Shown here: positions 1 to 16,752 of the stretch, in pieces | Position numbering within the stretch: the stretch's first letter is position 1 | Layout: each line of letters begins with the position of its first letter | Assembly (NCBI RefSeq): GCF_017921815.1 | Contig: NZ_JAGEMM010000001.1 | Location: 372,001 to 436,000, forward strand | DNA: 64,000 nucleotides | Direction: 5' to 3' | Origin: Microvirga antarctica | GTDB lineage: Bacteria > Pseudomonadota > Alphaproteobacteria > Rhizobiales > Beijerinckiaceae | The notes under the pieces: model-generated | Told to the model about the DNA's origin: nothing | The model's input: the letters and a program-made list of their open reading frames with translations, nothing else | Database searches by the model: none | Made by a program: the position numbers and the translations under genes

Positions 1-53
1 ATGCCATCATCGATTTCGAATCTGAGCATATGGCCTCTCCTGTTTGGCCGTCA

Positions 54-833
54 CTAGGGATGCGGATCGGAGTAATCCGTCGCCTGCTGGACGAGATCCC
101 AGATAGCGTTGGCCTGTGGCATTCTGATTTCTTCCAGAACGTGGCCTATCAAACCGACCGTCCGAGCAATCAACCCGATTCCGCGAACAGCCCGCCAATC
201 CAAACCGATATCCGAGGAAATCGCCCCGATAGCGGCGACTGCGTTCAACGTAAGCGGTCGCTGTAGCTTCTGGACCGCAAAACGGTGAATCTCCAACATC
301 AACTCCGTGTTCAGCGTAGGAACGCCCAACTCTCTTTGCATGTCGAACAGTTTCTGTGTGCGCGGATCAACCGGGTGGTGCGGCTGCCCCAACCCCGGAA
401 TCCGGCGCTTCGTAGAGGTGTACAATTCGACAATAGATTTCGCCTTCTCCGCCATCGAACCATCAAAGGCCGCAGCTTCAATCTGGAGCATCTTCGCCAC
501 GTTGCTTGAAGGCCCGACAAACGTATCGCCAGCCCCGAGCAAGCCACTCGCGACAGCCCCTTGCAGAGATTCCGGTGCGCCAAGAAATGTCAGTCGAGCG
601 GCTATTACGCTCGGCATCATGCCATGTTCGGCAATCGCTACAACCATGGCATTGATTAATCTGGACTCGGCAGGCCGCGGCAATTTTCCAGAAACTTCTA
701 GAAAAAACAAGTCCGCGATATCGATCTTGCCGATGAGTTCGTCGACAAGGTTATGGCCACGAACCGTGATGGAATCGACGTCAAGGGTCGCCATCTCCGT
801 TTTCACGCGGGAGGATTTTTTTGTCGTGCTCAT
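54..833 (-). CDS. citryl-CoA lyase-like protein (citrate synthase fold)
   Basis: 259 aa, the short form typical of citryl-CoA lyases, which share the citrate synthase C-terminal fold and cleave a citryl-type CoA thioester into acetyl-CoA and a 2-oxo acid. Visible family signatures are AEHGMMPS (about residues 68-75, His70 matching a citrate synthase catalytic His), a DPR motif at 156-158 and GLIARTVGLIGHVLEE near the C-terminus. The usual GxGHxxxxxDPR motif reads GLGQPHHPVDPR, so the canonical His is Gln150, with His152/153 nearby. It is the last gene of a leftward operon, 3 bp after the CoA-transferase, which could supply its CoA-ester substrate. The natural substrate cannot be deduced. Confidence 0.8.
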   Translation of the reverse strand: MSTTKKSSRVKTEMATLDVDSITVRGHNLVDELIGKIDIADLFFLEVSGKLPRPAESRLINAMVVAIAEHGMMPSVIAARLTFLGAPESLQGAVASGLLGAGDTFVGPSSNVAKMLQIEAAAFDGSMAEKAKSIVELYTSTKRRIPGLGQPHHPVDPRTQKLFDMQRELGVPTLNTELMLEIHRFAVQKLQRPLTLNAVAAIGAISSDIGLDWRAVRGIGLIARTVGLIGHVLEEIRMPQANAIWDLVQQATDYSDPHP

Positions 834-836
834 GAT

Positions 837-2651
837 CTATTTCTTTCTGCCGTTCAGAAAGTCGTTTCGAGGGTCGAATAGGCGCAACCGGATAAGCTCT
901 TCGCGTGTCGGCATCGGCTCGACGTCAAGGGTCGCCGCGACATCGAAGGTCCACTCACATTCTGCACGTATTTTTTCGACGACTTGAGATTGCGAGAGAT
1001 CATTCTGTGGGAATATGCCCGTCAATGCGAACCGTCCCTCTCGTTTCTCGAATATGCCGAGGTCAGTCACGAGAGTGGAAACCAGTCGCCCGGGGCTGGT
1101 GATATAGGGAAGTTTTGTAACGAGCCGCTTCGCAGATTGTTGCGTGATCGCGATGATGTCACGCGATGCAGAATTGATATCATTTGCGCCACCCGAACCG
1201 ACGAGAAAACGACCATCTTGGGCGTAGGTCGAGTTGATGTTGCCTTCTGCGTCGATCTGCGCCGCACCGATGATCGAGAGGCAGTTATTGTGACGGCTCC
1301 CGACAAATTGTCCAAGGACACCAAAGGCCGTTGTGAAACTCTTCGCACTCGCCAAATTCCGATTGGCAAAAATAAAGGGTTCGCCAGGCTGCGGCATGAA
1401 ACCGTAAAGTCCGATTTCTGCCACCAGTTCGACGGGAATTCCGTCATCGATCTGTAACTTGGAAACGGCTAACCACGCCGCGAGGTTGGCATAACCGACG
1501 CCCGCCTCAATGATCTCGAAGCCCTCTTCCTTGACCTTGTGTTCCAGCACATGAGTCGCTGCAACAACCATGGCGTCGATAGCGTCATGACCCTCTCGAC
1601 TCACGATCGAATCAATCGTCTCGGGAGTGAGATCATCCTGCCAGCTCTCGGTGAGGGAGCGGCCTCGCAGCATCTGAACCCGATCTCCGCCGAGCTTGCG
1701 GACATAGTCTTCGTGACTTCCAACGTCCAGGATCCATTCTTTCACCCATCGGTCAAAGTCTTCCTTTGTCCGCGAGGCCAGCCGAATTTCGCGAAAGAAA
1801 GAGTAATCCTCCACATAAGCCGCAACATCGACGCCGCCCGGGTTGTAGATCGCGTAAGGATGAGACCCCATCGGGGCTTCCGACACACTCAGAACGCGAT
1901 GCGAGGGAATTAGAGTTAGGGTCGGGTTGGCGCGGATCACATCGGTTGACACGACGCGTTCGACCGTGGCGATCACGCCCGCTTTCGCGGCGAACGCAAC
2001 AATATCGCCCTCGCCGAATGGTGGAGAAACCAGAATGTTTCCCTGCTCATCAGCTGCTAGTCCGTGCACGATCGTGACATCTGGCACGATCGCCTCCGCC
2101 AAGCCTATCCTCTCACCGCTGCCGAATGGATCGTCCATCTGTTGAAAGCTTGGGTTATCCTCCATCGAACTGCCCATCAGCGAACGCGTAAGGGCAAATG
2201 GAAAGCCTGATGCTCCCGCGGCGAGCCGCTGAGCGATAACCAAAAGCGACTGGTTCTCGATCTCGACCGAGCCGGAGTTGATCGCATGCTGAAATATCCG
2301 GTGTGGAGACGCTGTCGGGTAGTTCTCTCCGACAAAAGAGACCGTCATTTTCCGGATGAGGCCTTCCGAAACCAGGCTAGCCTGATTGGCAACCATTCCG
2401 GCGCAGACGACCCAGAAATTTGGCTTGGTACCCGCAAAGGCTCGCACGAGAGCATTGCTCGCCGCCATCGGTCTCGCGCCCGTGTAGCCGAAATGAATGG
2501 TCATTCCCGCCTTTACGTGCTTGGCAATGGCAACATCGAGAGGCATCACCTTGCTGGTGGCGTAGCGGGAAGGCGGTGCGAACATCTCCCGCAGGCGCCG
2601 GCGATCATAAACCGAATCGTCGCGCGACACACGATTCGAGTCACGTTCCAT
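837..2651 (-). CDS. fused two-domain CoA-transferase (GctAB/IpdAB-like)
   Basis: Family I CoA-transferase in which the alpha-like half (about residues 1-335) and beta-like half (about 360-604) are joined; in glutaconate CoA-transferase and in the ring-opening hydrolase IpdAB these are separate chains. The beta half has the region expected to carry the thioester-forming glutamate (ELVAEIGLYG, Glu near residue 412) and the later GSGGANDIN signature. The start used is ATG 2651; a TTG at 2666 directly abuts the upstream stop codon and has no better ribosome-binding site. It lies between the amidohydrolase and the lyase in one operon. It may transfer CoA to a carboxylic acid or, like IpdAB, hydrolyse a cyclic CoA ester; sequence alone does not decide. 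Confidence 0.8.
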   Translation of the reverse strand: MERDSNRVSRDDSVYDRRRLREMFAPPSRYATSKVMPLDVAIAKHVKAGMTIHFGYTGARPMAASNALVRAFAGTKPNFWVVCAGMVANQASLVSEGLIRKMTVSFVGENYPTASPHRIFQHAINSGSVEIENQSLLVIAQRLAAGASGFPFALTRSLMGSSMEDNPSFQQMDDPFGSGERIGLAEAIVPDVTIVHGLAADEQGNILVSPPFGEGDIVAFAAKAGVIATVERVVSTDVIRANPTLTLIPSHRVLSVSEAPMGSHPYAIYNPGGVDVAAYVEDYSFFREIRLASRTKEDFDRWVKEWILDVGSHEDYVRKLGGDRVQMLRGRSLTESWQDDLTPETIDSIVSREGHDAIDAMVVAATHVLEHKVKEEGFEIIEAGVGYANLAAWLAVSKLQIDDGIPVELVAEIGLYGFMPQPGEPFIFANRNLASAKSFTTAFGVLGQFVGSRHNNCLSIIGAAQIDAEGNINSTYAQDGRFLVGSGGANDINSASRDIIAITQQSAKRLVTKLPYITSPGRLVSTLVTDLGIFEKREGRFALTGIFPQNDLSQSQVVEKIRAECEWTFDVAATLDVEPMPTREELIRLRLFDPRNDFLNGRKK

Positions 2652-2666
2652 GGGGTGTCCAATCAA

Positions 2667-3536
2667 TTACAGCGTTCTGAAGACGTTGCGAGCAGCCTTG
2701 TAGAGAAGCATTTCGCGTGCATCCGGCTTCAGGCTCAATACTTTTACCTGGGCGAGGCTGTCGGCGTGGTTCACAACGGGAAAGTCAGTCCCCCACAGGA
2801 CCTTCCCCTTCCCACGGCTGTTTAGAAATTGAACGAGCGCAGGATCCCAATATTTCGGCGCATGCGCTCCCGCCCCTATGTAAAGGTTCGGGTGTTTCCA
2901 CGCGAGTGCGATCAGTTCCTGAACCCATGGCCAGCCGGTATGCGACGCGACAATGCGCAACTCCGGGAAATAGAGCGCAACGTCGTCGAGCAGGATGGGC
3001 TGTGCCATGGCGGATGGCATTCGCTCGGCGGAATGCCCCGTTTGAAGGATCACGGGCACATCGAGTTCGACACACTTGGCGTAGAACGGGTAGAAGTCAC
3101 GATGGTTAAGAGGCATGCCCCACCCGTAGGAATGGATATGAGCGCCCTCGAACCCCCATTCCTTAACGGCTTTCTCGAGTTCGCGCACGCCGTCCATTCC
3201 GAGAGTGACATCGACCCCGTAGAGACCACCGACCCGTCCGCCGCAGCTTTCCATCAAGTCTCTTATGACCGAGGCCTTCACATCGAGTAGCGGTGCCTTG
3301 TGCTTGAAACTCCACATCTTGAAGCTCGGCACAAAGACCTTTCCGACCCCGACTTCATCAAGCATGTCCACGAACTCGGCGGGTGAGTATCCCTTGAGGC
3401 GCTCGTCCATGTTCCACCACGAAACGAGCTTATGAAGCTCGTCGTTCTCAAGATACATGTTCCGCAGACCGTCCGGGGTGAAGATGTTGGTCCAATAGTC
3501 AATTGCGCGTGTATCGGCCGTCATCATGCTCCTCAT
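2667..3536 (-). CDS. amidohydrolase-2 family protein (ACMSD-like TIM barrel)
   Basis: 289-aa protein of the amidohydrolase_2 family, which includes decarboxylases (ACMSD), lactonases and hydratases of ring-cleavage pathways. C-terminal metal-site motifs are visible: ILQTGHS, IVASHTGWPW and LWGTDFPV (Asp). The usual N-terminal HxH motif is absent and the corresponding segment reads AIDYWTNIF, so the metal site is altered or lost. First gene of a leftward operon; its stop codon is immediately followed by the CoA-transferase gene. Start ATG 3536 has a weak GAGG upstream; ATG codons 9 and 12 bp further in are alternatives. An operator-like palindrome lies about 80 bp upstream. Family is clear, reaction unknown. 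Confidence 0.78.
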   Translation of the reverse strand: MRSMMTADTRAIDYWTNIFTPDGLRNMYLENDELHKLVSWWNMDERLKGYSPAEFVDMLDEVGVGKVFVPSFKMWSFKHKAPLLDVKASVIRDLMESCGGRVGGLYGVDVTLGMDGVRELEKAVKEWGFEGAHIHSYGWGMPLNHRDFYPFYAKCVELDVPVILQTGHSAERMPSAMAQPILLDDVALYFPELRIVASHTGWPWVQELIALAWKHPNLYIGAGAHAPKYWDPALVQFLNSRGKGKVLWGTDFPVVNHADSLAQVKVLSLKPDAREMLLYKAARNVFRTL

Positions 3537-3613
3537 CGACCTCTATAATCCTGAAGGAGTTTTTTGCCTCGCGGCCAAATCTCGCATCAACGATGGCACC
3601 ATCACTACCAGAT

Positions 3614-3631
3614 TCAGACTGATCGAACAAT
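3614..3631. promoter_or_regulatory. operator-like palindrome, copy 1
   Basis: TCAGACTGATCGAACAAT. It matches the copy at 9935-9952 at 14 of 18 positions, including the GACTGAT core and the AACAAT end. It lies about 80 bp upstream of the amidohydrolase start. TetR-type binding is inferred from size and symmetry. Confidence 0.5.
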
Positions 3632-3814
3632 CATTTTACGATGTTGCTCTGTCCACTCCCTCTCTTAGAATCGAGAATATTGAGAGCTCGACAATGAATT
3701 CGACCAGCGCTCCGGTCCGCGAGCCGGCAAAAGGGCAGGACAAATCCCCTCTTCTCACGACCGTATTGAAGAGACGATTAAAATAACCCAAACTTGCCAA
3801 CCCTTTCTGGGTTT

Positions 3815-3832
3815 ATTGACTGGTCAATCAAT
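3815..3832. promoter_or_regulatory. operator-like palindrome, copy 2
   Basis: ATTGACTGGTCAATCAAT, an 18-bp imperfect inverted repeat (ATTGA/TCAAT arms, inner TTGAC-TG-GTCAA). It is the most symmetric of three related sites and lies just upstream of the candidate -35 of the ABC-transporter operon. Confidence 0.6.
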
Positions 3833-3836
3833 CATA

Positions 3837-3864
3837 TTGACTTCCAATGCCTCCCGTGTACGGT
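3837..3864 (+). promoter_or_regulatory. candidate sigma70-type promoter of the ABC/SDR/PrpD operon
   Basis: TTGACT at 3837-3842, 16-bp spacer, TACGGT at 3859-3864, about 95 bp upstream of the ATPase start. The -35 box is good and the -10 box is weak. It is adjacent to operator copy 2. Confidence 0.35.
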
Positions 3865-3959
3865 TTAGCCTCTCGCGTCCCCCGTGTAATCGGTCATGAG
3901 GTCTCTCCGGCCGGCCACTGTGCCAGGTGCCGGGCGCAAAAGACTGATCAAGGAGCAAT

Positions 3960-4793
3960 TTGATCGTGGAAGCAGTTGCCCAGTCGGTGATCCTGTCCGC
4001 CGCTTCTCGGCCTACGGCCGTTTCACTCCAAGGTGTCACCTGCCAGTTTGCGGACTATACGGCCGTCGAGGATGCGAGCCTGACAATTGCCGACGGCGAA
4101 TTCGTATCGATCATCGGACCGACAGGTTGCGGCAAATCAACGTTGTTGAATGTCATCGCCGGCCTGCTTGAGCCAACGAGCGGTTCGGTTGAAATTTTCG
4201 GGCTTCCGATCGCCGGCCTCAACAGAAAGGCCGGATACATGTTTCAGTCAGACAGCCTTTTCCCGTGGCTCAGCGCGTTGGACAACGCTCAGATCGGCCT
4301 GGAATTCAGAGGCGTCCCCCTGGCGGAGCGCAAGGACCGCGCCGGAGTCTGGTTGAACCGTGTCGGACTCGCTGGGCACGAGCACAAATACCCACATCAG
4401 CTCTCGGGCGGCATGCGCAAACGCGTCTCACTTGCTCAGATGCTCGTTACGGATCCCGATATTCTTCTCATGGACGAGCCATTCAGCGCTCTTGATGTGC
4501 AGACACGGACCCTGATGGAGAATGAGCTCCTCGACCTCTGGTCTGCAGATCGCAAATCGGTAGCCTTCGTCACGCACGATCTGGAGGAAGCGATTTCGCT
4601 GTCGGATCGTGTGGTCATTCTCTCGGCCGGCCCCGCGACCCGCCCCATAGGAGAGTTCGTGATCGATATCCCACGTCCGCGCGATGTGGCGGAGATCCGG
4701 CATCAGCCACATTTTATTGAACTTTATCGCAACATCTGGGAGGCCATGAAGGACGAAGTTCTCAAGGCTTACGCGGTGAACCGACGGAAATAG
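3960..4793 (+). CDS. ABC transporter ATP-binding protein (TauB/SsuB/NitT type)
   Basis: 277-aa ATPase of the nitrate/sulfonate/taurine importer family. Walker A is GPTGCGKST (residues 53-61), the signature LSGGMRKR, and Walker B with Glu is ILLMDEPF followed by SALD; the switch His is in FVTHDLEEA. It should energise import through the permease encoded directly downstream. AGGAG at 3951-3955 precedes two candidate starts, TTG 3960 (4-nt spacing) and GTG 3966 (10-nt spacing). It begins an operon with permease, SDR-like and MmgE/PrpD genes. No cognate periplasmic binding protein is encoded nearby. Substrate unknown. Confidence 0.88.
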   Translation: MIVEAVAQSVILSAASRPTAVSLQGVTCQFADYTAVEDASLTIADGEFVSIIGPTGCGKSTLLNVIAGLLEPTSGSVEIFGLPIAGLNRKAGYMFQSDSLFPWLSALDNAQIGLEFRGVPLAERKDRAGVWLNRVGLAGHEHKYPHQLSGGMRKRVSLAQMLVTDPDILLMDEPFSALDVQTRTLMENELLDLWSADRKSVAFVTHDLEEAISLSDRVVILSAGPATRPIGEFVIDIPRPRDVAEIRHQPHFIELYRNIWEAMKDEVLKAYAVNRRK

Positions 4794-5642
4794 ATGGAGA
4801 GAAGCATGCCCACCGTCGCAAAAACGGATCCATCAACGATGACTACGGCCGGCGGGCAGACCCATCGCGCTAAGGGCAATCAGAGACGTTCGCCAGTGTC
4901 AATCCACGTGATGCAGGTGGCGCTCTTCATCGGCATTCTCACAGCATGGCAAATCACCTCGACTTTCAGCCTCGTTCCTCCGTACATCCTGGGCGAACCC
5001 ATCGGCGTCGCCAGGCAACTCTACGTCTGGCTTGTGACCGGCAAGGTCTATCCTCACATCGCTGTCACGCTGTTGGAGACCGTGCTCGCGTTCGTGATCG
5101 GTCTCGTGCTTGGCATCGGCATGGGCTTGCTGCTCGGCCTGAACGTGACGCTCGCAAAGCTATTTGACCCGTATCTGAAAGCTTTCAATGCCATGCCGCG
5201 CGTGGTTCTGGTGCCCATTTTCATCGTGTGGTTCGGCCTCGGTATCTGGTCGAAGGTGGCGTTGGGGATCACGCTTGTGTTCTTTATCGTTTTCTTCAAT
5301 GTCTTCCAGGGTGTCCGAGACGTAAATCCAGTTGTCCTCGCAAATGCGCGCATGTTGGGAGCCTCACGTCGCCAATTGCTTACGCGTGTATATCTGCCGT
5401 CTGCCACGGGCTGGGTTTTCTCAAGCCTTCACGCATCGGTCGGAATGGCATTCGCGGGCGCCGTTATCGGGGAATATATGGGGTCCGCAAGGGGCCTCGG
5501 TTACCTCATTCTGCAAGCTGAGAGCGTCTTCGATATCAACGCCGTTTTTGCCGGCATGGTACTCTTGACAATCTTTGCCGTGATCCTGGACTGGATTGTC
5601 TCGAGCTTCGAGAAGAGGTTGGTGAAGTGGAAGCCGGAGTGA
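4794..5642 (+). CDS. ABC transporter permease (TauC/SsuC/NitT type)
   Basis: 282-aa inner-membrane permease with a short hydrophilic N-terminus, about six hydrophobic segments, and the BPD-type EAA loop around NARMLGASRRQLLTRVYLPS that contacts the ATPase, followed by IGEYMGSARGLGYLI, typical of the TauC/SsuC family. ATG 4794 directly follows the ATPase stop codon; ATG 4806 is an alternative. It forms a heteromeric importer with the preceding ATPase, but the expected binding protein is missing from the window. The end overlaps the next gene, which implies translational coupling. Confidence 0.88.
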   Translation: MERSMPTVAKTDPSTMTTAGGQTHRAKGNQRRSPVSIHVMQVALFIGILTAWQITSTFSLVPPYILGEPIGVARQLYVWLVTGKVYPHIAVTLLETVLAFVIGLVLGIGMGLLLGLNVTLAKLFDPYLKAFNAMPRVVLVPIFIVWFGLGIWSKVALGITLVFFIVFFNVFQGVRDVNPVVLANARMLGASRRQLLTRVYLPSATGWVFSSLHASVGMAFAGAVIGEYMGSARGLGYLILQAESVFDINAVFAGMVLLTIFAVILDWIVSSFEKRLVKWKPE

Positions 5643-6439
5643 GTGATAAGGTTCTTGAGCTGCCCGGGCTGGTCGACAAAATCGCAGTTGTCACCGGTGC
5701 GAGCCGCGGGATTGGCGCAGCAATCGCGCGCGAGTTGGCGAGGCACGGTGCGGATGTGGTGTTGACTGCTCGGGATCCCGCTCCGCTGGCGGAGGTCGCT
5801 GCGGAAGTCAAAAGCCTTGGTCGCCGCTCAACCGTTGTTGCTGGTGATTTGACCCTGCCCGACTTCGGGTCCAAGGTTGTGAACGCCGCAATCGAGACAT
5901 TCGGAAGGGTCGACCTGCTGGTCAACAATGCGGGCGCAACCAAGCGAGGCAATTTTGTTGACCTGACCGACGCAGACTGGGACGATGGTTTCGCGCTCAA
6001 ATTTTTCGGCGCAGTGAGGATGTGCCGTCTGTGTTGGCCGGAGCTGCGGAAATCTCGTGGTGCAGTTCTGAACATCGGTGGTGCCGGTGGCCGAACCCCC
6101 GATAAGCCCTTCACCATCGGAAGTTCCGTCAACGCCGCCATGATGGCGTTCACAAAAGCCTTGGCGGATCTCGGCCGGGAAGATGACGTTAGAGTGAACC
6201 TCGTCAACCCTGGACTCATCCGTACCGATCGCCTTGAGAAACGGATCGTCGATGCCATGAAGGCGGATGGCATCACTCGTGAGCTGGCTGAGCAACAACT
6301 CAGTAATCAGGCCGCCATCACCCATATCGGCGAGGCTGAGGACATCGCACGCATTGTGGCGTTCATGCTGTCAGACAGCGGAATGCTATTCCATGGCAGC
6401 CTCGTGGATGCAGATGCCGGTTATACTAAGGGAGTTTGA
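5639..6439 (+). CDS. SDR-fold protein lacking the Ser-Tyr-Lys catalytic residues
   Basis: Short-chain dehydrogenase/reductase fold of about 266 aa with intact nucleotide-binding features: TGASRGIG (about 19-26), the acidic DL turn and NNAG. The active site is lost: where the family has YxxxK this protein has Gly and Asn (GSSVNAAMMAFTKAL, residues 161 and 165), and the usual Ser is in a GGAGG stretch. It may bind NAD(P)(H) without classical SDR chemistry, or use other residues. GTG 5639 overlaps the permease stop (GTGA); GTG 5627 is an alternative start. It is embedded in the transporter/PrpD operon and the reading frame is intact, so it is not a pseudogene. Confidence 0.8.
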   Translation: MSDKVLELPGLVDKIAVVTGASRGIGAAIARELARHGADVVLTARDPAPLAEVAAEVKSLGRRSTVVAGDLTLPDFGSKVVNAAIETFGRVDLLVNNAGATKRGNFVDLTDADWDDGFALKFFGAVRMCRLCWPELRKSRGAVLNIGGAGGRTPDKPFTIGSSVNAAMMAFTKALADLGREDDVRVNLVNPGLIRTDRLEKRIVDAMKADGITRELAEQQLSNQAAITHIGEAEDIARIVAFMLSDSGMLFHGSLVDADAGYTKGV

Positions 6440-7781
6440 TGCGACTCCGACCCGCGCGTTTGCCGCCGCAGCAACGCAATCACACTGGCGCGCAATCCCG
6501 GCCGGGGTTCGTCATGATGTGGTTAGAACGACAGTCAACGCCATCGGCTGCATGCTGGGAGGCGTTGACCATCCAGCCGTCAATCAGATCGAAGAATTCA
6601 CCAGGTCGATATCAGGCGCGCCCGTCGCGACCGTCTTGGGCACATCCATCTCACGTGATGCACCGAGGGCCGCACTGCTGAATGCTCTATCGGGATCCGT
6701 CTACGCATTTGACGATACCCACGCTCACTCGATTGTTCATCCGGGCACGCCGGTGGTCGCAGCAGCGCTGGCAGCGTCCGAGACCGCTCGCGGTGCGATC
6801 CCTGGCGAGACATTCCTCAACGCAGTAGCATGGGGACTTGAGATCGCCTGTCGCGTGAGCCGGCTGGTATCACCGGGTATGCCGATGGCCATATCGCAAA
6901 CCGGGACAGCAGGAATGCTTGGAGCCGCCGTCGCAGCCGGCGTCACACTTGGCTTGTCGGCGCAGCAACTGGGGTGGGCAATCGGGATTGCGGCAAGTTC
7001 TGCTGCCGGTATCCGAGCCGGGCATGGCACGATCTCGATGCACCTGCTGCCTGCCCGAGCCTCGATGCTCGGGGTGGAGTCGGCTCTCCTCGCCCAGGCG
7101 GGATTTGAGGGCGGAGACGAATCCCTTGCCGGACCTCATGGGTTCTTTGCTGGTTTCGGGGGCACCGCTTCGACGGATGGTCTTCTTGACGGACTTGGCA
7201 CAACCTTCGAGCTCTCAGCCAACACCTTCAAGCCCTATCCGTGTGGGATCGTAATCCACCCCATTATCGACGCCTGCCTGGCGCTCAATCCGCGCTTCAG
7301 TGCGCGCACCTCACCCATCAGAACCCTTAGGTTGATTGTTTCGCCTCAAGCGGCGGCGCTCGCTGATCGTCAGCATCCCGTCTCTGATTTAGCAGTGCAA
7401 GTCAGTCTGCAGCACTGGGCAGCGGCGGCACTCGTCTTCGGTAGAGCCGGGATCGATGAGGCAAGAATGCTCGCTGGTGAGAACAAGGAACTGATCAGGG
7501 ATCTCCGCGACAGGAGCTTGATCGTCGTTGATCCAGTGTGTGCCATCGACGCTGCCAGCGTCGAAATTTGTTTCGACGACGGAACGTCTGAAGTGGTTGT
7601 GGTCTCCCACTGCCGCGGAAGTCTTGACCTGCCTATGACGGACGCTGAGTTGAACGAGAAATTTGTGGCGCAAGCCACTCGAACTGTTGGTGCTGCGCAA
7701 GCGAGGCGCGCAGCGTCTCAGTCATGGGCTCTTTCAAACGTCCGTTTTGTGGCCACATTCATCCGGGAGCTGGCAATCTAA
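6414..7781 (+). CDS. MmgE/PrpD family protein
   Basis: About 455 aa, full length for MmgE/PrpD proteins, a group including 2-methylcitrate dehydratase, cis-aconitate decarboxylase and iminodisuccinate epimerase. Family features are the N-terminal helical domain (DVVRTTVNAIGCMLGG), the FDDTHAHSIVHPGTPVVAAAL segment split around His residues, and TFKPYPCGIVIHPIIDACL in the second domain. The frame is open from 6267, but homology-like sequence begins near ILREFDATPTRAF, so ATG 6414 was chosen, giving a 26-bp overlap with the SDR-like gene. Last gene of the operon. It probably dehydrates, isomerises or decarboxylates a polycarboxylate-like compound; the substrate is not deducible. Confidence 0.85.
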   Translation: MPVILREFDATPTRAFAAAATQSHWRAIPAGVRHDVVRTTVNAIGCMLGGVDHPAVNQIEEFTRSISGAPVATVLGTSISRDAPRAALLNALSGSVYAFDDTHAHSIVHPGTPVVAAALAASETARGAIPGETFLNAVAWGLEIACRVSRLVSPGMPMAISQTGTAGMLGAAVAAGVTLGLSAQQLGWAIGIAASSAAGIRAGHGTISMHLLPARASMLGVESALLAQAGFEGGDESLAGPHGFFAGFGGTASTDGLLDGLGTTFELSANTFKPYPCGIVIHPIIDACLALNPRFSARTSPIRTLRLIVSPQAAALADRQHPVSDLAVQVSLQHWAAAALVFGRAGIDEARMLAGENKELIRDLRDRSLIVVDPVCAIDAASVEICFDDGTSEVVVVSHCRGSLDLPMTDAELNEKFVAQATRTVGAAQARRAASQSWALSNVRFVATFIRELAI

Positions 7782-7802
7782 GCGACGAGACTGCTCAAGC
7801 CG

Positions 7803-8669: not shown

Positions 8670-8687
8670 TGCAGACCTCCAAGACCG

Positions 8688-9824: not shown

Positions 9825-9934
9825 CGTACATCCGTTTGAGGCCGCCTGAATGGAGCGAGCGCAACTTCGCCATCAGTCGTTCGGCGACCACGACAAAGAC
9901 CTAGCTCACGTTAGGTAAGCGACGGAGAGATTAT

Positions 9935-9952
9935 GTTGACTGATTAAACAAT
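9935..9952. promoter_or_regulatory. operator-like palindrome, copy 3
   Basis: GTTGACTGATTAAACAAT. It shares TTGACTG and CAAT ends with copy 2 and most positions with copy 1, and overlaps the -35 and spacer of the promoter at 9936-9964, a typical repressor position. Confidence 0.58.
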
Positions 9953-9964
9953 CACTCATAATCT
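9936..9964 (+). promoter_or_regulatory. sigma70-type promoter of the branched-chain-type ABC operon
   Basis: TTGACT at 9936-9941, 17-bp spacer, TAATCT at 9959-9964, about 100 bp upstream of the binding-protein start. Both boxes and the spacing are close to consensus. It is overlapped by operator copy 3. Confidence 0.55.
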
Positions 9965-10067
9965 GCCTTACCGACAGTACCTCGTCAATACAGAAACTAA
10001 GGGCTGTCCGCATTTCGGCACGCTGAGAGTGCGTCGCCGTCACGTAACCATCTCGCGGAGGAGACGC

Positions 10068-11264
10068 ATGAGACATTTCGGAAAACTGGTCATGGTTGGC
10101 ATGGCCGCAGCTTCTCTGGCTGTGGCGACGGGATCCGCCTCAGCGGCGGACGATATTGTACTGGGCTATGTCGACGATCTCTCGGCCTTGGTGGCGGAAG
10201 CCGGCAATGACAGCCTGAAGGGCGTAAAGCTCGCGGTAAGCGAGGCCAATGCGACCGGCGGCGTGGGTGGAAAGAAGATTCGCCTCGTCGTGTACGATGG
10301 CAAGGTCGATACTCAGCTGACCTCGACCTACATCTCTCGCGCAATCGAGGATGACGGCGCAGTCGCTGTATTTGGCGGAAATGTCTCTGGTGCAATTCCG
10401 AGCGCCATGACGATTGTGAATGAAGAAAAGGTGCCGTTCTTCAGCATGTCTGCCGCCACGGACTCGTTCACGAATCCCGTCACGCCTTACTTCTTCCGCT
10501 TCGGTCCGTCGAACAGCCAAGATGCCGCCGCCGTCGCGCAGCTGATCTCGGAGGCCGGCCTCAAAAAGGTCGCGATCATTAACAATTCCCTGCCGTTTGG
10601 ACTCGACGGCAGCAAAGCCATCACAGCCGCCCTTAAAGAAAAGGGTGTCGATGTTGTGATCAACGAAGTCTACGAGGTCAACAGCACAGATGTCTCGCCG
10701 CAAGTCGTGAAAGTTCGCGACGCCAAGCCAGAGGCCGTTGTCGTCTGGCCGTATCCGGCCGACGGCGGGCGCGTCCTGCGCACGATGGCCCAACTCAATC
10801 TAAATGTGCCTACGGTGATTGCCCGCGTGGCGCTTTTCGATGCGTTCAGGGAACTCGCCGGCAAGGCTGCCGATGGCGTGCTGGTACCCAATACGGTCGA
10901 CACCGAGCGCCCCGAGGTCAAAGCCATGCTCGACAAGTTGACGGCCGAGTTCGGCCAGCGCCCCCCAACCATGTATATCGCCATGGGCTATGACGGTGCG
11001 AAGGCCGCCATTCAGGCCCTTCAAGATTCAAAGGTTCAGGCCGCGTTGAAATCCGACGACCTCCCCGCGGCCCGCGTCGCGCTTCGTGACGCCCTTGAGT
11101 CGATTGGAACGTTTTCGAGCCTGCAGGGGGCAGCGGGGAATACTTTGAAGTTTAGCTCTCAAAGTCATCAGGGCCTTCACGGAAACAACATTTTTGTCTG
11201 GGCCCAAGTGCAAGACGGAAAACTGAAAAAGGCTGACCCAAAATCCTTTGCTCCGAAGAACTAG
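10068..11264 (+). CDS. branched-chain-type ABC transporter substrate-binding protein
   Basis: 398-aa periplasmic binding protein of the LivJ/LivK (type I fold, HAAT) family. The signal peptide spans about residues 1-28 (hydrophobic core then GSASA-AD). The mature part follows the family pattern: GVKLAVSEANATGGVGGKKI, then VAVFGGNVSGA and a C-terminal GYDGAKAAIQAL. ATG 10068 was chosen because GGAGGAG lies just upstream; the longer frame from 10029 starts with an Arg-rich stretch and no signal sequence. It begins an operon with permeases, ATPases, a racemase-like gene and a MaoC gene. These proteins bind many carboxylates besides amino acids, so the ligand is probably the catabolic substrate of this region. 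Confidence 0.88.
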   Translation: MRHFGKLVMVGMAAASLAVATGSASAADDIVLGYVDDLSALVAEAGNDSLKGVKLAVSEANATGGVGGKKIRLVVYDGKVDTQLTSTYISRAIEDDGAVAVFGGNVSGAIPSAMTIVNEEKVPFFSMSAATDSFTNPVTPYFFRFGPSNSQDAAAVAQLISEAGLKKVAIINNSLPFGLDGSKAITAALKEKGVDVVINEVYEVNSTDVSPQVVKVRDAKPEAVVVWPYPADGGRVLRTMAQLNLNVPTVIARVALFDAFRELAGKAADGVLVPNTVDTERPEVKAMLDKLTAEFGQRPPTMYIAMGYDGAKAAIQALQDSKVQAALKSDDLPAARVALRDALESIGTFSSLQGAAGNTLKFSSQSHQGLHGNNIFVWAQVQDGKLKKADPKSFAPKN

Positions 11265-11275
11265 TCTGCAACTCA

Positions 11276-11299
11276 GGGCGCTGCCATTCTGCAGCGCCC
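11276..11299 (+). terminator. intra-operon hairpin after the binding-protein gene
   Basis: Perfect 9-bp stem GGGCGCTGC / GCAGCGCCC with a 6-nt loop, not followed by a T run. Hairpins here commonly stabilise the binding-protein mRNA or attenuate the rest of the operon; this role is inferred. Confidence 0.6.
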
Positions 11300-11330
11300 C
11301 GTAAAGCGACGATCACTCGGCAACATCGAG

Positions 11331-12218
11331 GTGCGTGTGCAGACATTTGGCATTCTGATCCTTTCGGGACTGACGAACGGCAGCGTCTATGCTCTCGTCG
11401 GTCTCTCTCTTGCGATGACCTACGGTGCAAGCCGTGTGATCAATTTCGCCCAGGGCGAGTTCGTCATGCTCGGCGCGTTGTCGACGGTCCTCTTCGTGAC
11501 AACTTTTTCGCTCCCAATGGTCGTCGGTATTCCGATGGTCTTGATCGTTTGCGCTACCGTGGGTTTCCTCGTCGAGCGCCTCGCCTATCGTCCGCTGGTT
11601 CGTCGAGGCTCGCAACCATTGACTATCATGATCGGCACGCTTGCCTGTGCGTCCATCATGACCGGGACTGCCTTGCTCATCTGGGGGCCAAACCAGCTTT
11701 TCGTCCCGAACGCATTCTCGCTTGAGGGGGTGACAATCGCAGGCATCACCTCGACGCCACAGCAGCTAGCTATCATCGCGACATTCGCATTCCTGATGGC
11801 ACTTATTTGGTTCATGCTCTACCGGACGACCTTTGGCCTCACCATCAGAGCGGTCGGAATCGATCCTGCCGTCGCCACACTGATGGGAATTCGCGCAGAA
11901 ACAATCATTGCATTCTCGTTTGTCTTCAGCGCGATCGTTGGTGGGCTGACGGGGGGCCTCGTCGGTCCACTGCTTGGTGGCCATGTATCGATGGGCATCA
12001 TGCTCACGATCAAGGGTTTCATGGCAGTCATCCTTGGGGGCATGGGCAGCCCCTTCGCTGCGGCAGCCGGTGGCATCGCGATCGGGCTGCTTGAGGCGAC
12101 GGTCGCGTTCTATGGAAATAGCTTCTATGCGGAGCCGATCATATTCGGCCTCATTCTGATGATGCTGATCATTCGACCCACGGGGCTTCTCGGGGAGTGG
12201 GAGGCCAATCGGAAATGA
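11331..12218 (+). CDS. branched-chain-type ABC transporter permease (LivH-like)
   Basis: 295-aa integral membrane permease. LivH features are the N-terminal GLTNGSVYALVGLSLAMTYG segment, INFAQGEFVMLGA, ERLAYRPLVRR, a central cytoplasmic loop AVGIDPAVATLMGI and the final RPTGLLGEWE. Start GTG 11331; GTG 11337 is also possible. The stop overlaps the next gene's start (ATGA). It forms the membrane channel with the LivM-like protein. Confidence 0.87.
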   Translation: MRVQTFGILILSGLTNGSVYALVGLSLAMTYGASRVINFAQGEFVMLGALSTVLFVTTFSLPMVVGIPMVLIVCATVGFLVERLAYRPLVRRGSQPLTIMIGTLACASIMTGTALLIWGPNQLFVPNAFSLEGVTIAGITSTPQQLAIIATFAFLMALIWFMLYRTTFGLTIRAVGIDPAVATLMGIRAETIIAFSFVFSAIVGGLTGGLVGPLLGGHVSMGIMLTIKGFMAVILGGMGSPFAAAAGGIAIGLLEATVAFYGNSFYAEPIIFGLILMMLIIRPTGLLGEWEANRK

Positions 12219-13207
12219 GCTCCACCACCCTTCGCAACTGGCTCCCGGCCACGGTGATCCTCATGATCGGGGCGGTCCTCCCTTGGCTTTTGCAAGGAAA
12301 CTTTCAGCTTCGAATCGCGATGTTGACCTGGGTCTTCGCAATATTCGGAATGGGGTTCAATTTGCTCTATGGAATAGCCGGACAGCTGTCGCTTGGACAG
12401 CAGGCCTTCTTTGCTATCGGCGCATACACGTTCGCACTTCTACAAATCCATTTCGCCTTGTCGCTTCCCCTGGCTTTGCTCGGAGGAATTGTCGTCTGCG
12501 CTGTGGTCGGACTCGTGATTGGACTACCTGTCCTGCGCCTCCGCACCCACTATCTTGCCATGGCGACATTGATGTTCGCCATGATTGTCCACGACGTTGC
12601 GTTGCGCTGGACCGACTTCACAGGCGGCACCTCTGGATTGCGCGTGCCGCCACCGTCGCTATTCGGCGCACGGCTTGAACGTATTGATCTCTACTATCTC
12701 GTCTTCGGACTGGCGGCGGCGGCGTATTGCCTCCAGATTTTCATAAAATCCACTCATCTTGGCAGGGCTCTCGAGGCCGTCAAAACAGACGAGACGGCGG
12801 CCTCGAGCGTCGGAATCGACGTGACACGCTACAAGGTCAGCATATTCGTCGTTGCCGCCATGTTTGCTGCCGTAGCGGGCATAGCGTACGCTCTGGTAAG
12901 TCGTGGCGTCGACCCATCTTATTCGGGCATCGGGATGGTCGTGAACCTGCTAACGCTATCGGTCGTTGGCGGCCTCGGCAGCCGGATTGGCCCTTTTATC
13001 GGGGCCGCAATCGTGATCATCGCGCCACAGATTCTCGCGGGCTTGCAGGAATACCAGACCCTGATCTACGGCGTCGGACTGCTCGTGTTTATGATTTTTC
13101 TGCCACGCGGCATCGGTGGATCGATAGAGCGATCAGCTGAAGGTTCGTTTGATGATCCTAAAGGAGAGAAATCGGCACGGCGTATATCGAGGGCCGAGAC
13201 CCCATGA
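12215..13207 (+). CDS. branched-chain-type ABC transporter permease (LivM-like)
   Basis: 330-aa permease partner of the LivH-like protein, with many hydrophobic segments, the LivM pattern [24 protein letters not shown], a cytoplasmic loop [23 protein letters not shown] and C-terminal RGIGG. ATG 12215 overlaps the upstream stop as ATGA, so it is preferred over an ATG 18 bp earlier. Its own end overlaps the LivG-like start in the same way, indicating tight translational coupling. Confidence 0.87.
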
Positions 13208-13992
13208 CCACGCCTCCCCCTCTCCTGTCGATCCGGGAGGTCAGCAAGCGGTTCGGGGGGCTTTCTGCGGTCGATGCCGTGTCTTTCGAGGTCCATAGTG
13301 GAGAGATCGTAGGTGTCATCGGGCCAAATGGCGCCGGTAAGTCCACCTTGTTCAACCTGGTGTCAGGGTTAGCACCGTTGACCGGCGGTGATGTGATCTT
13401 CGGCGGCAACGATATGACGCTTGTTCCGCCCCATGAGAGAAGCGCGATTGGGATGACGCGCACCTTTCAGATCGTTCGGCTGTTCGGTCATCTTTCGGTG
13501 ATCGAGAATGTCATGCTTGGCGGTCATTGTCGTACCACGCAAGGGTTTGCTTCGTCGCTTCTCAGACTCCCAAAGGTTCTCATCGATGATCGGAAGCTGC
13601 GTCATCTCGCGATGCACTGGTTGAATTTCGTCGGTCTCTCAAAGCGCGCAGACGAACCCGCGTCCCACCTGCCACATGGACAGCAACGAATGGTCGAGAT
13701 AGCGCGTGCGATGATCTCCGGCCCAAAGCTCCTGCTGCTGGACGAGCCAGCAGCCGGCCTGAACGGCGCGGAAACGACGAACCTGCTCAACATTCTTCGG
13801 CAGCTGAATGATCGTGGGCTGTCCATCCTTCTCGTCGAACATGACATGAAGTTCATCATGGGCATATGTGACCGCATCGTCGTTCTGGATCACGGCACGG
13901 GCATCGCCCAGGGAACACCTCAGGAGATTAGGCAGAACCCAGCCGTCATCGAAGCTTATCTCGGCAAGAGGAACGGTGATGCTGCGCATTGA
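13204..13992 (+). CDS. branched-chain-type ABC transporter ATPase (LivG-like)
   Basis: 262-aa ATPase. Walker A is GPNGAGKST, followed by the LivG-type [12 protein letters not shown] stretch, Walker [13 protein letters not shown] and switch [10 protein letters not shown]. The signature motif reads [10 protein letters not shown] rather than LSGGQ/LSYGQ, a tolerated deviation that may affect ATPase kinetics. It starts within the LivM-like stop codon (ATGA) and overlaps the LivF-like gene by 14 bp. It pairs with that protein to drive the importer. Confidence 0.87.
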
Positions 13993-14707
13993 GGGCCTCA
14001 AGTCCGGCTATGGCAAGAGCGAGGTTCTTCATGGCGTATCCATGTCGATCAATGCCGGACAAGTGGTCACGATCATCGGCGCAAACGGTGCCGGAAAGTC
14101 CACCCTGGTCAACACCTTGTCGAAGCTTTTACCGATCATGTCCGGTAGAATCGAGTTCGATGGCCGCGACATCACGGCTCTTTCGGCGTCGGACGTCGTG
14201 GACCTCGGAATCATTCAGGTGCCGGAAGGACGAAAGCTATTCGGGCCGCTCACGGTTGACGAGAATCTCACACTCGGTTCTTACCGCGTGCGGCACGCGC
14301 CGAAAGCGGAGCTCACCGATCGTCGGAAATTTGTCTTGGATCTGTTTCCTCGTCTTGCCGAACGGGCGACGCAGCGCGCAGCGACGCTATCGGGCGGCGA
14401 GCAGCAGATGGTCGCCCTCGGCCGTGCGTTGATGGCAGGGCCGCGGCTCCTCCTGCTAGATGAATTGACCCTTGGCCTTGCACCCATCGTCATCGACGAG
14501 ATGTTCGAAACACTGGAGCGTCTCAAGCGCGAGGGGCTGACGATGCTACTGGTGGAGCAACGCGCAGATGCAGCCTTGGCATTGGCGGACCATGCCTACG
14601 TCATGGCAACCGGGGATGTGGTTGCAGAGGGACCGGCGCCTGACCTGCGCAACGACGAGCGCGTCCGGAAGGCGTATCTTGGCGAGTCGGACATCACTTC
14701 CGACTAA
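13979..14707 (+). CDS. branched-chain-type ABC transporter ATPase (LivF-like)
   Basis: 242-aa ATPase with Walker A GANGAGKST, VPEGRKLFGPLTVDENL, signature LSGGEQQMVALGRALM and Walker B LLLLDELTLGLAP. In Walker B the usual DEP reads DEL (Asp-Glu retained, Pro to Leu). Homology begins at [15 protein letters not shown], so ATG 13979 (or GTG 13976) is the start, not the longer open frame from 13868 that runs into the preceding gene. It partners the LivG-like ATPase. Confidence 0.87.
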   Translation: MLRIEGLKSGYGKSEVLHGVSMSINAGQVVTIIGANGAGKSTLVNTLSKLLPIMSGRIEFDGRDITALSASDVVDLGIIQVPEGRKLFGPLTVDENLTLGSYRVRHAPKAELTDRRKFVLDLFPRLAERATQRAATLSGGEQQMVALGRALMAGPRLLLLDELTLGLAPIVIDEMFETLERLKREGLTMLLVEQRADAALALADHAYVMATGDVVAEGPAPDLRNDERVRKAYLGESDITSD

Positions 14708-14721
14708 ACAAAGGTGTTTAA

Positions 14722-15825
14722 ATGCGGCCACTCAGCGATCTCCTGGTGCTGGATTTTTCGACGCTTCTCCCCGGTCCCATGGCAACGCTTCTGCTCGTCG
14801 AGGCCGGCGCGCGGGTCGTCAAGATCGAACCACCGTCTGGTGATGCCATGCGCAGTTATCCGCCGATCTGGGGAAAGGACAGTGCGCTCTTTGCAATGCT
14901 CAACCGGGGCAAGGAAAGCCTCGCGCTGGATCTCAAAAGCTCAGATGGCCTCAAGCAGGTGCGCAAGCTCGCAAAAGAGGCGGATGTCCTGGTGGAGCAG
15001 TTCCGACCTGGGGTGATGGCAAGGCTTGGACTTGGACCCATTGAGTTAGCGGAATTGAATCCGCGTCTGATTTACTGCTCTATCACGGGCTATGGCCAGA
15101 CAGGCCCTCGTTCGAACGAAGCGGGCCACGACCTCAATTTCCTCGGCGACACCGGTTATCTTGCTCTTTCGAGCGGCGACATATCGGCGCCTGTTCAACC
15201 AGCCGCCCCTATTGGAGACATCGCTGGCGGCTCCTATCCTGCCGTCATCAATATTCTCCTTGCGCTCGAAGAACGACGCCAAACGGGCCGGGGCCGGCAT
15301 ATCGACATCGCTATGAGCGAGAACTTGTTCCCCATGACCTATTGGGCTCTTGCAACGGGATTTGCGACGAACGAGTGGCCGGGCAATGGGACTGATCTCG
15401 TGACCGGTTCGTCACCACGGTATCGCGTTTATGCAACGCGCGATCGCAAGGGACTCGTCGTGGCTGCCTTGGAAGAAAAGTTCTGGTCAATCTTTTGCGC
15501 TCGGCTCGATCTGGACGTCTCGTTCCGCGATGACTCGGTGGACCCTGCCAGGACCATGGGTGAGATCGCGCGCATCGTCATCGCAGAGGATGCTGAGTTC
15601 TGGACAAACCGGTTTTCTGGCGCGGATTGCTGTTGCTCGATCATGTCGGATATTTCACACGCGGTAAGAGATCCGCACTTCGTCAAGAGAGGCGTCTTTG
15701 CACACACGGTTGTCAACGAGCGCGGCGACACCATGCCAGCGCTACCCATTCCTATTGATCCCGGATTTCGGCATGAGCCAGATGTTGCACGCAGCGCACC
15801 TGCATTGCGTCGCGCGCTTGACTGA
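14722..15825 (+). CDS. CaiB/BaiF family protein, alpha-methylacyl-CoA racemase-like
   Basis: 367 aa, the length of alpha-methylacyl-CoA racemases (AMACR/MCR). The triad of mycobacterial MCR (His126, Asp156, Glu241) has counterparts His136 (AGHDLNFL), Asp166 (IGDIAGGS) and Glu251 (ALEEKFW), with the same 30- and 85-residue spacings. This favours a racemase that interconverts 2R/2S-methyl-branched acyl-CoAs over a family III CoA-transferase, although both share the fold. It follows the ABC transporter by 14 bp and precedes a MaoC hydratase, as expected where racemisation precedes stereospecific acyl-CoA dehydrogenation. Three consecutive Cys near residue 297 are unusual. Confidence 0.83.
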   Translation: MRPLSDLLVLDFSTLLPGPMATLLLVEAGARVVKIEPPSGDAMRSYPPIWGKDSALFAMLNRGKESLALDLKSSDGLKQVRKLAKEADVLVEQFRPGVMARLGLGPIELAELNPRLIYCSITGYGQTGPRSNEAGHDLNFLGDTGYLALSSGDISAPVQPAAPIGDIAGGSYPAVINILLALEERRQTGRGRHIDIAMSENLFPMTYWALATGFATNEWPGNGTDLVTGSSPRYRVYATRDRKGLVVAALEEKFWSIFCARLDLDVSFRDDSVDPARTMGEIARIVIAEDAEFWTNRFSGADCCCSIMSDISHAVRDPHFVKRGVFAHTVVNERGDTMPALPIPIDPGFRHEPDVARSAPALRRALD

Positions 15826-15876
15826 TCGACACCTGCCTCTCACCGAACTGCCAAAGACGGCAAGGAGTCTTGCATT

Positions 15877-16752
15877 TTGCTGGATCAAACTGTTATCGGC
15901 GCTGCGGATAAAGACGTCGTAATTTCCGTTGACCCAAGCCATCTCAGTGCGTACGCAGAGGCAATCGGGGAGACAAACTCCGTATACTTTTCGAAGCAGT
16001 CCGCCTTGAAGGCCGGCTATCCCGATATCCTGATCCCCCTGACGTACTATTTCTCGCTCGGATTATTGCGCGAGAGACCGCTGGGATTTTTGGAAGATCG
16101 AAGCGTCGATCTCAAAAAAATCCTGCATGGAGAGCAATCATTCCGCTACACTCGCCTCGCTTTCGCAGGCGAAAGCCTGATGGTTTCACGCCGTGTTGGG
16201 GACTTCTATCGAAGAAAAAGTGGAGAACTGCTGTTTATCGTGGTGGAGACGAGAATCTGTGACGCCTCGGGCGACCTCGTTGCAACTTCCAGCGAAACCT
16301 TGGTTTTGCCGAGGCACCCACCGATAGAAAAGTCAGTCGCCCGCGAGCCGATTGTTCACCAGAAAGTTGATCCGGGTGGATTACATCCGCTACGACCTGG
16401 CGTCGTCACGAAAGCGCTCCTGAGACGGTTCGCTCACGCATCGGGCGATCAGAACCCAGTCCATACCGATCGGCTGGTGGCCAGGGCCGCTGGCTACGAT
16501 GATGTGTTTGCGCACGGCATGCTCTCAATGGCTTGGCTCGGGCGTCTCCTTACCGATGCAACCCGACAAGAAAACGTGCACTCGTTTACCGCTCGGTTTT
16601 CTCGACGGATGCCCCTTCATGCGAGACCGATTTGCAACGGCCTGCTCCGGAAACATGACGCCCCTTCGGGCGATCATGAATTCGACCTCAGCATTCAATT
16701 GTACTCAGGACAACCGATCGCAACTGGGGCAGCAGCCGTCGCCCGTTCTTGA
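15877..16752 (+). CDS. MaoC-like dehydratase/hydratase (two hot-dog domains)
   Basis: 291 aa with an N-terminal FAS1/MaoC_N-type hot-dog domain (about 15-145; GYPDILIPLTYYFSL, ILHGEQSFRY) and a C-terminal MaoC domain (about 175-290) carrying the hydratase dyad Asp191/His196 in ASGDQNPVHTD followed by AHGMLSMAWLGRLL. The architecture resembles 2-enoyl-CoA hydratases, HTD2-type and mesaconyl-CoA hydratases. Start TTG 15877 is supported by AAGGAG at 15862-15867. Last gene of the operon; it would hydrate the enoyl-CoA made by the acyl-CoA dehydrogenase. Confidence 0.83.
   Translation: MLDQTVIGAADKDVVISVDPSHLSAYAEAIGETNSVYFSKQSALKAGYPDILIPLTYYFSLGLLRERPLGFLEDRSVDLKKILHGEQSFRYTRLAFAGESLMVSRRVGDFYRRKSGELLFIVVETRICDASGDLVATSSETLVLPRHPPIEKSVAREPIVHQKVDPGGLHPLRPGVVTKALLRRFAHASGDQNPVHTDRLVARAAGYDDVFAHGMLSMAWLGRLLTDATRQENVHSFTARFSRRMPLHARPICNGLLRKHDAPSGDHEFDLSIQLYSGQPIATGAAAVARS

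Follow-up and report, generated by a model that had tools for sequence, protein, structure and literature searches.

A conserved, apparently horizontally acquired gene cluster of Microvirga antarctica that may degrade an alicyclic or branched acid via CoA esters

Coenzyme A (CoA)-dependent catabolic operons are a known kind of system. The left end of a stretch of Microvirga antarctica DNA (contig NZ_JAGEMM010000001.1, positions 372,001 to 436,000; 64,000 nucleotides (nt), called the window below; host genome of 4.5 Mb) raises the question of which acid would be degraded, and by what chemistry, by a cluster that holds a 'citryl-CoA lyase'-like protein and a fused CoA-transferase. With slightly under even confidence, we favour an apparently horizontally acquired, probably TetR-controlled unit that degrades an alpha-substituted alicyclic (cyclohexane- or terpenoid-type) or branched acid via CoA. 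Protein families were assigned by Pfam and NCBIfam scans, and every family named in the first-pass annotation of the window was found at its place. The cluster extends about 6 kb beyond the left window edge, into the contiguous stretch L011, where a TetR regulator, an acyl-CoA ligase, a BadH-like dehydrogenase and an enoyl-CoA hydratase are encoded. The annotation's pathway reading was partly supported. Its view that the catabolic unit is undescribed held: no pathway with the gene set of the cluster was found in the open-access literature (titles and abstract openings), which is no proof that none exists. To our knowledge, no described system joins this gene combination to the lyase active site reported below.

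The core of the cluster was delimited by comparison with G1005, a genome of the same class and a different family. Its locus (L039) carries 15 of the cluster genes in identical order and orientation: TetR, FadD, the short-chain dehydrogenase (SDR) SDR3, the enoyl-CoA hydratase (ECH), the lyase, the CoA-transferase, the amidohydrolase, SDR2 and an acyl-CoA dehydrogenase (ACAD) on one strand, and a substrate-binding protein (SBP), LivH, LivM, LivG, LivF and CaiB on the opposite strand. These genes are given below with the protein identity to the G1005 ortholog, where noted, in brackets.

L011 15771-16454, minus strand: TetR regulator (78%)
L011 16599-18239, minus strand: FadD, AMP-forming, AliA-like acyl-CoA ligase; Pfam and NCBIfam
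L011 18316-19110, minus strand: SDR3, BadH-like short-chain dehydrogenase; Pfam and NCBIfam
L011 19271 to window 29 (start codon; window part 1-29), minus strand: ECH, 252 aa (65%, L039)
54-833, minus strand: citrate-synthase-fold 'citryl-CoA lyase'-like protein; PF00285, NF004868 (71%)
837-2666, minus strand: fused alpha-beta class I CoA-transferase, 609 aa; PF01144 (69%)
2667-3536, minus strand: amidohydrolase-2 family protein, BB4693/3irs-like; PF04909 (83%)
7803-8669, minus strand: SDR2, short-chain dehydrogenase; Pfam/NCBIfam (76%)
8688-9824, minus strand: ACAD; Pfam/NCBIfam (73%)
10029-11264, plus strand: SBP, branched-chain-type ABC substrate-binding protein; Pfam (65%)
11331-12218, plus strand: LivH-type permease; family scan (80%)
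12197-13207, plus strand: LivM-type permease; family scan (69.5%)
13204-13992, plus strand: LivG-type ATPase; family scan (67%)
13973-14707, start approximate, plus strand: LivF-type ATPase; family scan (71%)
14722-15825, plus strand: CaiB-family protein, alpha-methylacyl-CoA-racemase-like; family scan (59%)

The 15 orthologs share 59-83% protein identity with pN/pS values of 0.13-0.38, synonymous sites being near saturation; the unit is thus under purifying selection. The co-occurrence of lyase, fused CoA-transferase and amidohydrolase, proposed earlier as a check, was confirmed: the three are co-conserved and co-linear in the only other genome with the unit. The GC content is 57.3% for window positions 1-16752, 62.5% for the remaining window and 63.8% for the G1005 locus, and the cluster was apparently acquired horizontally. 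The fused CoA-transferase is rare within the groups searched. It was detected in 3 of 397 genomes of the order at E≤1e-30 (the other two at 31% identity, one of them partial at a contig end), in 1 of 398 genomes of the phylum at 1e-60, in 3 of 385 genomes of the class by a profile search at 1e-60, and in 1 of 17 genomes in the family of G1005, the order search there covering the identical 17 genomes. At 1e-30 the lyase gave matches in 4 of 61 relatives: the host's own protein and three at only 35-40% identity.

Five further window genes are not part of the conserved unit.

3960-4793, plus strand: NMT/Tau-type ABC ATPase; Pfam/NCBIfam; absent at the G1005 locus
4794-5642, plus strand: NMT/Tau-type ABC permease; Pfam/NCBIfam; absent at the G1005 locus
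5627-6439, plus strand: SDR1, short-chain dehydrogenase; Pfam/NCBIfam; absent at the G1005 locus
6267-7781, plus strand: MmgE/PrpD open reading frame (ORF); both Pfam domains; true start downstream of the listed ORF start, position uncertain
15877-16752, plus strand: FAS1-like/MaoC double-hotdog hydratase; family scan; not seen in G1005

In G1005 the NMT ATPase, permease, SDR1 and PrpD are all missing between amidohydrolase and SDR2. The G1005 contig ends left of TetR and about 0.6 kb past CaiB, so that the comparison covers TetR rightward; no MaoC match was found on it. A genome-wide search of G1005 at E≤1e-20, run without a positive control and hence a weak negative, returned neither PrpD nor MaoC. 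Because of their absence from the G1005 locus, the NMT transporter, PrpD and MaoC were placed outside the conserved unit. MaoC was thereby rejected as a core enzyme, being neither downstream of CaiB on the G1005 contig nor matched in the genome. PrpD, in which both MmgE/PrpD Pfam domains exceed the gathering score (157 and 82.5 bits, cut-offs 32.1), was also rejected as a core enzyme; yet the promoter of its operon has the operator-like site described below. The annotation's inclusion of PrpD and the second transporter therefore stands for this genome, where they share that site, and fails for the G1005 locus. Three plasmid relatives of PrpD (of eight records) had no context in common with the core. 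Separating the core from apparently added genes such as PrpD and the NMT transporter narrows the biochemistry to be examined.

The NMT-type transporter is itself split: roughly 9 kb, occupied by the conserved minus-strand operon, separate its presumed binding protein from the ATPase and permease (window 3960-5642), as if two clusters were interleaved.

L011 13734-14762, plus strand: NMT1-type substrate-binding protein; PF09084

In both genomes the gap between ACAD and SBP carries a shared short sequence, and a similar one was seen upstream of the amidohydrolase. The corresponding pattern, GACTG-N6-CAATCA (GACTGNNNNNNCAATCA), was first spotted by eye and counted afterwards. It has three exact matches in the window.

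3617-3633: operator-like site GACTGATCGAACAATCA, 80 nt upstream of the amidohydrolase, the first gene of a minus-strand operon; equivalent site at L039 8380-8396
3818-3834: operator-like site GACTGGTCAATCAATCA; the operon running from the NMT-type ATPase to PrpD starts 125 nt downstream
9938-9954: operator-like site GACTGATTAAACAATCA, between the divergent ACAD (113 nt) and SBP (74 nt); identical 17 bases at L039 10750-10766

With up to one mismatch the window contains five matches, against a shuffle mean of 0.98 (0 of 100 shuffles reached five). The whole 4.5-Mb genome has five exact matches, three in the cluster promoters and the remaining two inside transporter-like ORFs; the reversed-pattern control gave none. 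Two exact sites occur in L039, one ahead of the amidohydrolase gene and one in the gap separating ACAD from SBP; L011 has none. The pattern is absent from 52 of the 59 fetched loci, the other seven being overlapping pieces of both clusters plus two stretches with the remaining genomic sites. The independent support for the operator is its genome-wide rarity and its placement in L039. With a rare operator-like site in three of its promoters and two counterpart sites in L039, the cluster is probably one regulon. TetR would be the protein that binds the site, and the NMT/SDR1/PrpD operon looks like a local addition placed under the same operator. An earlier pattern (TTGAC-N-R-GTCAA) led nowhere and was dropped, and a scan for sigma-70 promoters and terminators gave nothing exceeding shuffles. 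With operator, regulator and core genes, a testable catabolic regulon for a cyclic or branched acid is defined.

The lyase is the most unusual member of the core. It passes the NCBIfam model NF004868 'citryl-CoA lyase' (289.1 bits, cut-off 193). A structure model built from a 5-sequence alignment (mean pLDDT 78.9, best of five, the others 63.5-69.2) had citryl-CoA lyase from Hydrogenobacter thermophilus (6hxp) as its top Foldseek match in the PDB (E 1.3e-11, TM 0.70, rmsd 8.8). The two proteins share the fold at ~32-33% identity, the DHG/EHG His, the DPR Arg and the C-terminal Arg and His. They differ in the NVD motif, whose catalytic Asp (corresponding to Asp1026 of human ATP-citrate lyase and its citrate synthase counterpart) is Val in the window protein, and in the GxGH motif, whose His is replaced by Gln with a one-residue deletion. 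Both positions were followed in an alignment of 17 proteins that all pass NF004868: those of the window, L039 and L015-L017 (the L015 protein scoring higher on NF004867, yet under that model's cut-off) and of 12 named plasmid loci, drawn from 103-104 matching plasmid records. The Asp is absent in all 17 (Thr in 10, Ser in 3, Ala in 2, Val in 2, the last being window and L039); it is present in 6hxp and in the host genome's other paralog. The GxGH His is present in 15, with Gln and the deletion confined to window and L039. In human ATP-citrate lyase Asp1026 is essential, and its chemical versus allosteric role is debated (PMC10115795). With the Asp and the GxGH His both gone, the window protein was not classed as a citryl-CoA lyase; canonical citryl-CoA-lyase chemistry, which the first-pass annotation had suggested, is doubtful from these residues. 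The NF004868 label may also be wrong in many genomes, since all 17 members checked, from haloarchaea to rhodococci, are without the catalytic Asp.

The neighbourhood of the plasmid lyases bears on their substrate. Within flanks of 6-10 kb an ACAD is annotated near the lyase in 9 of the 12 loci (L023, L024, L029, L050-L053, L055 and L056) and in none of L026, L054 and L057; because most of these lyases have an ACAD nearby, the homologs are suggested to act on a beta-hydroxyacyl-CoA. An operon recurs on Roseibium, Roseovarius, Nitratireductor and Paracoccus plasmids (L050, L052, L053, L056): an AMP ligase, two biotin-dependent carboxylase subunits, HMG-CoA lyase, an SDR, the Asp-less lyase and ACAD, with MaoC, PrpD, CoA-transferase or Liv genes nearby in some. 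No description of it was found in the open-access literature. The four are closely alike and hence are not independent cases.

The two halves of the fused CoA-transferase match glutaconate and succinyl-CoA:3-ketoacid CoA-transferases, the class I beta-like half matching TIGR02428 under the model cut-off. Its E-x-G Glu417 aligns with the SENG motif of the succinyl-CoA:3-ketoacid enzymes and is kept in 10 of 10 sequences (all eight of alignment A1, window included, plus L039 and L040). Compared with glutaconate CoA-transferase (1poi) and other class I enzymes, this Glu is conserved, whereas identity is low, the subunits are fused in one 609-aa chain and the neighbours are catabolic. Outside the core, nine loci with a fused transferase were examined (L006-L010, L013, L014, L025 and L040). 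A BadI/MenB-like protein adjoins it or lies within 2 kb in five of them (L007, L008, L013, L014, L040): those of L007, L008 and L013 score 270-344 bits in NCBIfam with MenB or BadI best, that of L014 is 73% identical to the L008 protein and that of L040 45% identical to the L007 protein. Ligase, BadH-like SDR and ACAD are also there in L007, L008 and L013, the named sources being RHA1 pRHL3, Azoarcus KH32C and G185. A weaker crotonase (37-38%) lies 6-10 kb off in L010 and L025, and none was found at 1e-8 in L006 and L009. The fused transferase and the BadI/MenB-like hydrolase form a second uncharacterised module, probably for alicyclic acids. The pairing is placed at L007 14959-16770, L008 11989-13665, L013 5713-7386, L014 4340-5257 and L040 6286-8154. 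The more distant contexts (a Desulfobacteraceae metagenome-assembled genome, Streptomyces, Rhodococcus P450 loci) have few core genes in common with the cluster; the Rhodococcus P450 loci carry, 6-10 kb away, a crotonase 37-38% identical to the RHA1 BadI-like protein. A single scan of genome contigs gave one relative, at 39%.

The remaining core enzymes were compared with family models and solved structures. The best NCBIfam model for FadD is, narrowly, AliA (cyclohexanecarboxylate-CoA ligase; 454.6 bits, cut-off 792.3) and for SDR3 it is BadH (227.5 bits, cut-off 431.2); for the SDR counterpart in RHA1 the FabG model beats BadH. The ACAD scores 198.2 bits on the AliB model TIGR03207 (cut-off 575.35) and shares 46% identity with a Rhodococcus DMU1 ACAD encoded close to a lyase and MaoC. 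No BadI was found in the cluster, its ECH scoring 49.6 bits on the BadI model, nor in the host genome, where none of 14 crotonase matches exceeded the cut-off of 467.6 (best 136.8); the model gives sub-cut-off matches in 11 of 14 control genomes. Pfam scans of the cluster proteins gave no thiolase family, and no thiolase search was made elsewhere in the genome. The closest solved relatives of the CaiB protein are alpha-methylacyl-CoA racemases (AMACR), and its AGHD and GDIAGG align with AGHD and GDFGGG of MCR, which hold its His126/Asp156 pair. The GHD is also present in the G1005 ortholog and in Paracoccus L027, with Y or F in L023, L026 and L029. The NCBIfam matches of the CaiB protein are mostly CoA-transferases and one isomerase, all far under cut-off (succinyl-CoA:mesaconate CoA-transferase, 155.7 versus 700). 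Racemase activity, as the first-pass annotation had proposed, is a reasonable prediction from the kept AGHD and GDxxGG motifs and these relatives. The amidohydrolase has IDYWTN in place of the N-terminal HxH metal motif and keeps H168, H199 and D251 in four of four sequences. A relative in Paracoccus AK26 is also beside SDR, ACAD, ECH and CoA-transferase genes. No matching report of amidohydrolase-type C-C hydrolases was found in the open-access literature.

Two described pathways rank among the nearest relatives of the cluster. The bad-ali pathway for cyclohexanecarboxylate (AliA, AliB, BadK, BadH and BadI, for example in Aromatoleum sp. CIB; PMC9795900) likewise groups a ligase, an ACAD, an enoyl-CoA hydratase and a BadH-like dehydrogenase in a single cluster under regulation. 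The window cluster differs in having no BadI and TetR instead of MarR (BadR), and it adds the remodelled lyase, the fused CoA-transferase, the amidohydrolase, the AMACR-like CaiB and the Liv importer. A plain bad-ali pathway was rejected, the AliA, AliB and BadH cut-offs being unmet. The limonene ring cleavage (lrc) operon of Syntrophobacteraceae LiM6 (PMC12583861) also follows an alicyclic acyl-CoA route with a CoA-transferase, and a tertiary carbinol acyl-CoA is proposed as the point of cleavage. It has a ring-opening hydrolase, LrcA, and thiolases, neither of which was found in the window cluster, and the cleavage is assigned there to LrcC, a protein of the HMG-CoA-synthase superfamily.

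In the pathway that we favour, the acid would be taken up by the Liv importer and converted to its CoA ester by FadD, after which CaiB would set the alpha stereocentre, ACAD would desaturate, ECH (plus MaoC in the M. antarctica strain) would hydrate, and the BadH-like SDR3 and/or SDR2 would oxidize the hydroxyl where it is secondary. The C-C bond would be cut by the citrate-synthase-fold lyase, not by a thiolase or BadI, in a (tertiary) beta-hydroxy- or beta-keto-acyl-CoA. The amidohydrolase is a candidate second C-C or ring hydrolase, so that cleavage may fall to the remodelled lyase, the amidohydrolase or both. The fused CoA-transferase would re-activate the freed carboxylate, and an acyl-CoA intermediate would probably relieve TetR; the M. 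antarctica strain would have gained the NMT transporter, SDR1 and PrpD behind that operator. That the substrate is alicyclic or branched is our inference. The bolder proposal, that a new C-C cleavage by an Asp- and His-less citrate-synthase-fold enzyme with an HxH-less amidohydrolase, acting on an alicyclic or tertiary-alcohol acyl-CoA, replaces BadI hydrolysis and thiolysis, is doubtful, though by no means far-fetched; if true, the widespread NF004868 'citryl-CoA lyase' subfamily is misnamed and has a different chemistry.

Several observations weigh against the favoured pathway. Only a single orthologous cluster was found. The AliA, BadH and AliB cut-offs are all unmet in the cluster; FadD is a near-tie with a medium-chain ligase model (452.4 bits), which clearly beats AliA in three relatives, and the best model for ACAD, acryloyl-CoA reductase, is a generic signal. 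The BadI/MenB-like proteins of the transferase relatives fall under the BadI and MenB cut-offs, and BadI or thiolase functions may be supplied from elsewhere in the genome. With Asp and His gone, the window protein may not be a lyase at all, and the four closely alike plasmid operons, which pair its homologs with HMG-CoA lyase and biotin carboxylase, have an acyclic, branched look. The chance figures for the operator are post hoc, the motif having been noticed in the tested regions first, and in L039 8 of 200 shuffles attain two matches at one mismatch.

The strongest rival, unlikely in our judgement, is an acyclic methyl-branched isoprenoid acid, on which racemase, ACAD and hydratase would yield a tertiary 3-hydroxy-acyl-CoA that the lyase splits into acetyl-CoA and a keto acid with no ring involved. 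The AMACR-like CaiB fits this route, as do the DMU1 relative of ACAD and the four plasmid operons with SDR, lyase, ACAD, HMG-CoA lyase and biotin carboxylase (some also with MaoC, some with Liv genes); however, the window cluster has no carboxylase or HMG-CoA lyase, SDR3 is best as BadH and FadD narrowly best as AliA, and the fused-transferase relatives adjoin BadI/MenB-like proteins in five of nine loci. A polycarboxylate of the alkyl-citrate, itaconate or tricarballylate type, among the candidates of the first-pass annotation and processed by CoA transfer, hydration (PrpD) and citryl- or citramalyl-CoA-type retro-aldol cleavage, is quite unlikely. The fold and subfamily score of the lyase, the CaiB score on the mesaconate transferase model (far under cut-off) and the CaiB and LeuCD-like genes or TTT/TRAP transporter genes beside some lyase homologs point to it, but the Asp is missing across the lyase subfamily and the His also in the window, PrpD and MaoC are outside the conserved unit and not found in G1005, and the transporters are of Liv and NMT type, not TTT/TRAP. 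The core further holds an AMP-forming ligase, ACAD and BadH-like SDR, and because ligase, BadH-like SDR and ECH lie in the cluster, left of the window, alicyclic or branched acyl-CoA chemistry is indicated rather than alkyl-citrate chemistry.

Ring opening by the fused transferase itself, acting like IpdAB as a hydrolase on a bicyclic (steroid C/D-like) ring, is very improbable. The class I fold and a weak match to IpdA structures are consistent with it. The displayed IpdA entries 6coj and 6co6 differ at one residue, presumably the catalytic Glu105; the window protein has Leu141 there, and Glu occurs at this position in none of the ten aligned sequences. All ten retain Glu417, whereas IpdB has Gly57 at the catalytic Glu position of the transferases (PMC5380842). 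The BadI/MenB-like neighbours of five of the nine relatives resemble EchA20 beside IpdAB (PMC5380842), but the window core has no EchA20/BadI partner. On its residues this role, raised in the first-pass annotation, is weakened, and it was rejected as the leading explanation. That unrelated transport and metabolic operons simply lie side by side is barely credible: the four strand blocks and the absence of the NMT operon and PrpD from the second genome would fit, but the 15-gene synteny across families argues for one unit, as does the rare operator shared by three promoters of the cluster and recurring at two corresponding positions in L039.

The surroundings of the cluster are of mixed content. 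To its right lie two sulfatase-family genes (PF00884; window 16902-18518 and 20995-23481, minus strand), with DNA gyrase A-family and UvrA-family genes farther right in the window. To its left, in L011, one further dehydrogenase gene precedes TetR.

L011, left of TetR, plus strand: SDR; family scan

At L011 6321-10799 a hydantoinase A/B pair is followed by an RraA-like gene and a GntR-type ORF (the GntR label given by eye), forming another catabolic-looking block beside the cluster.

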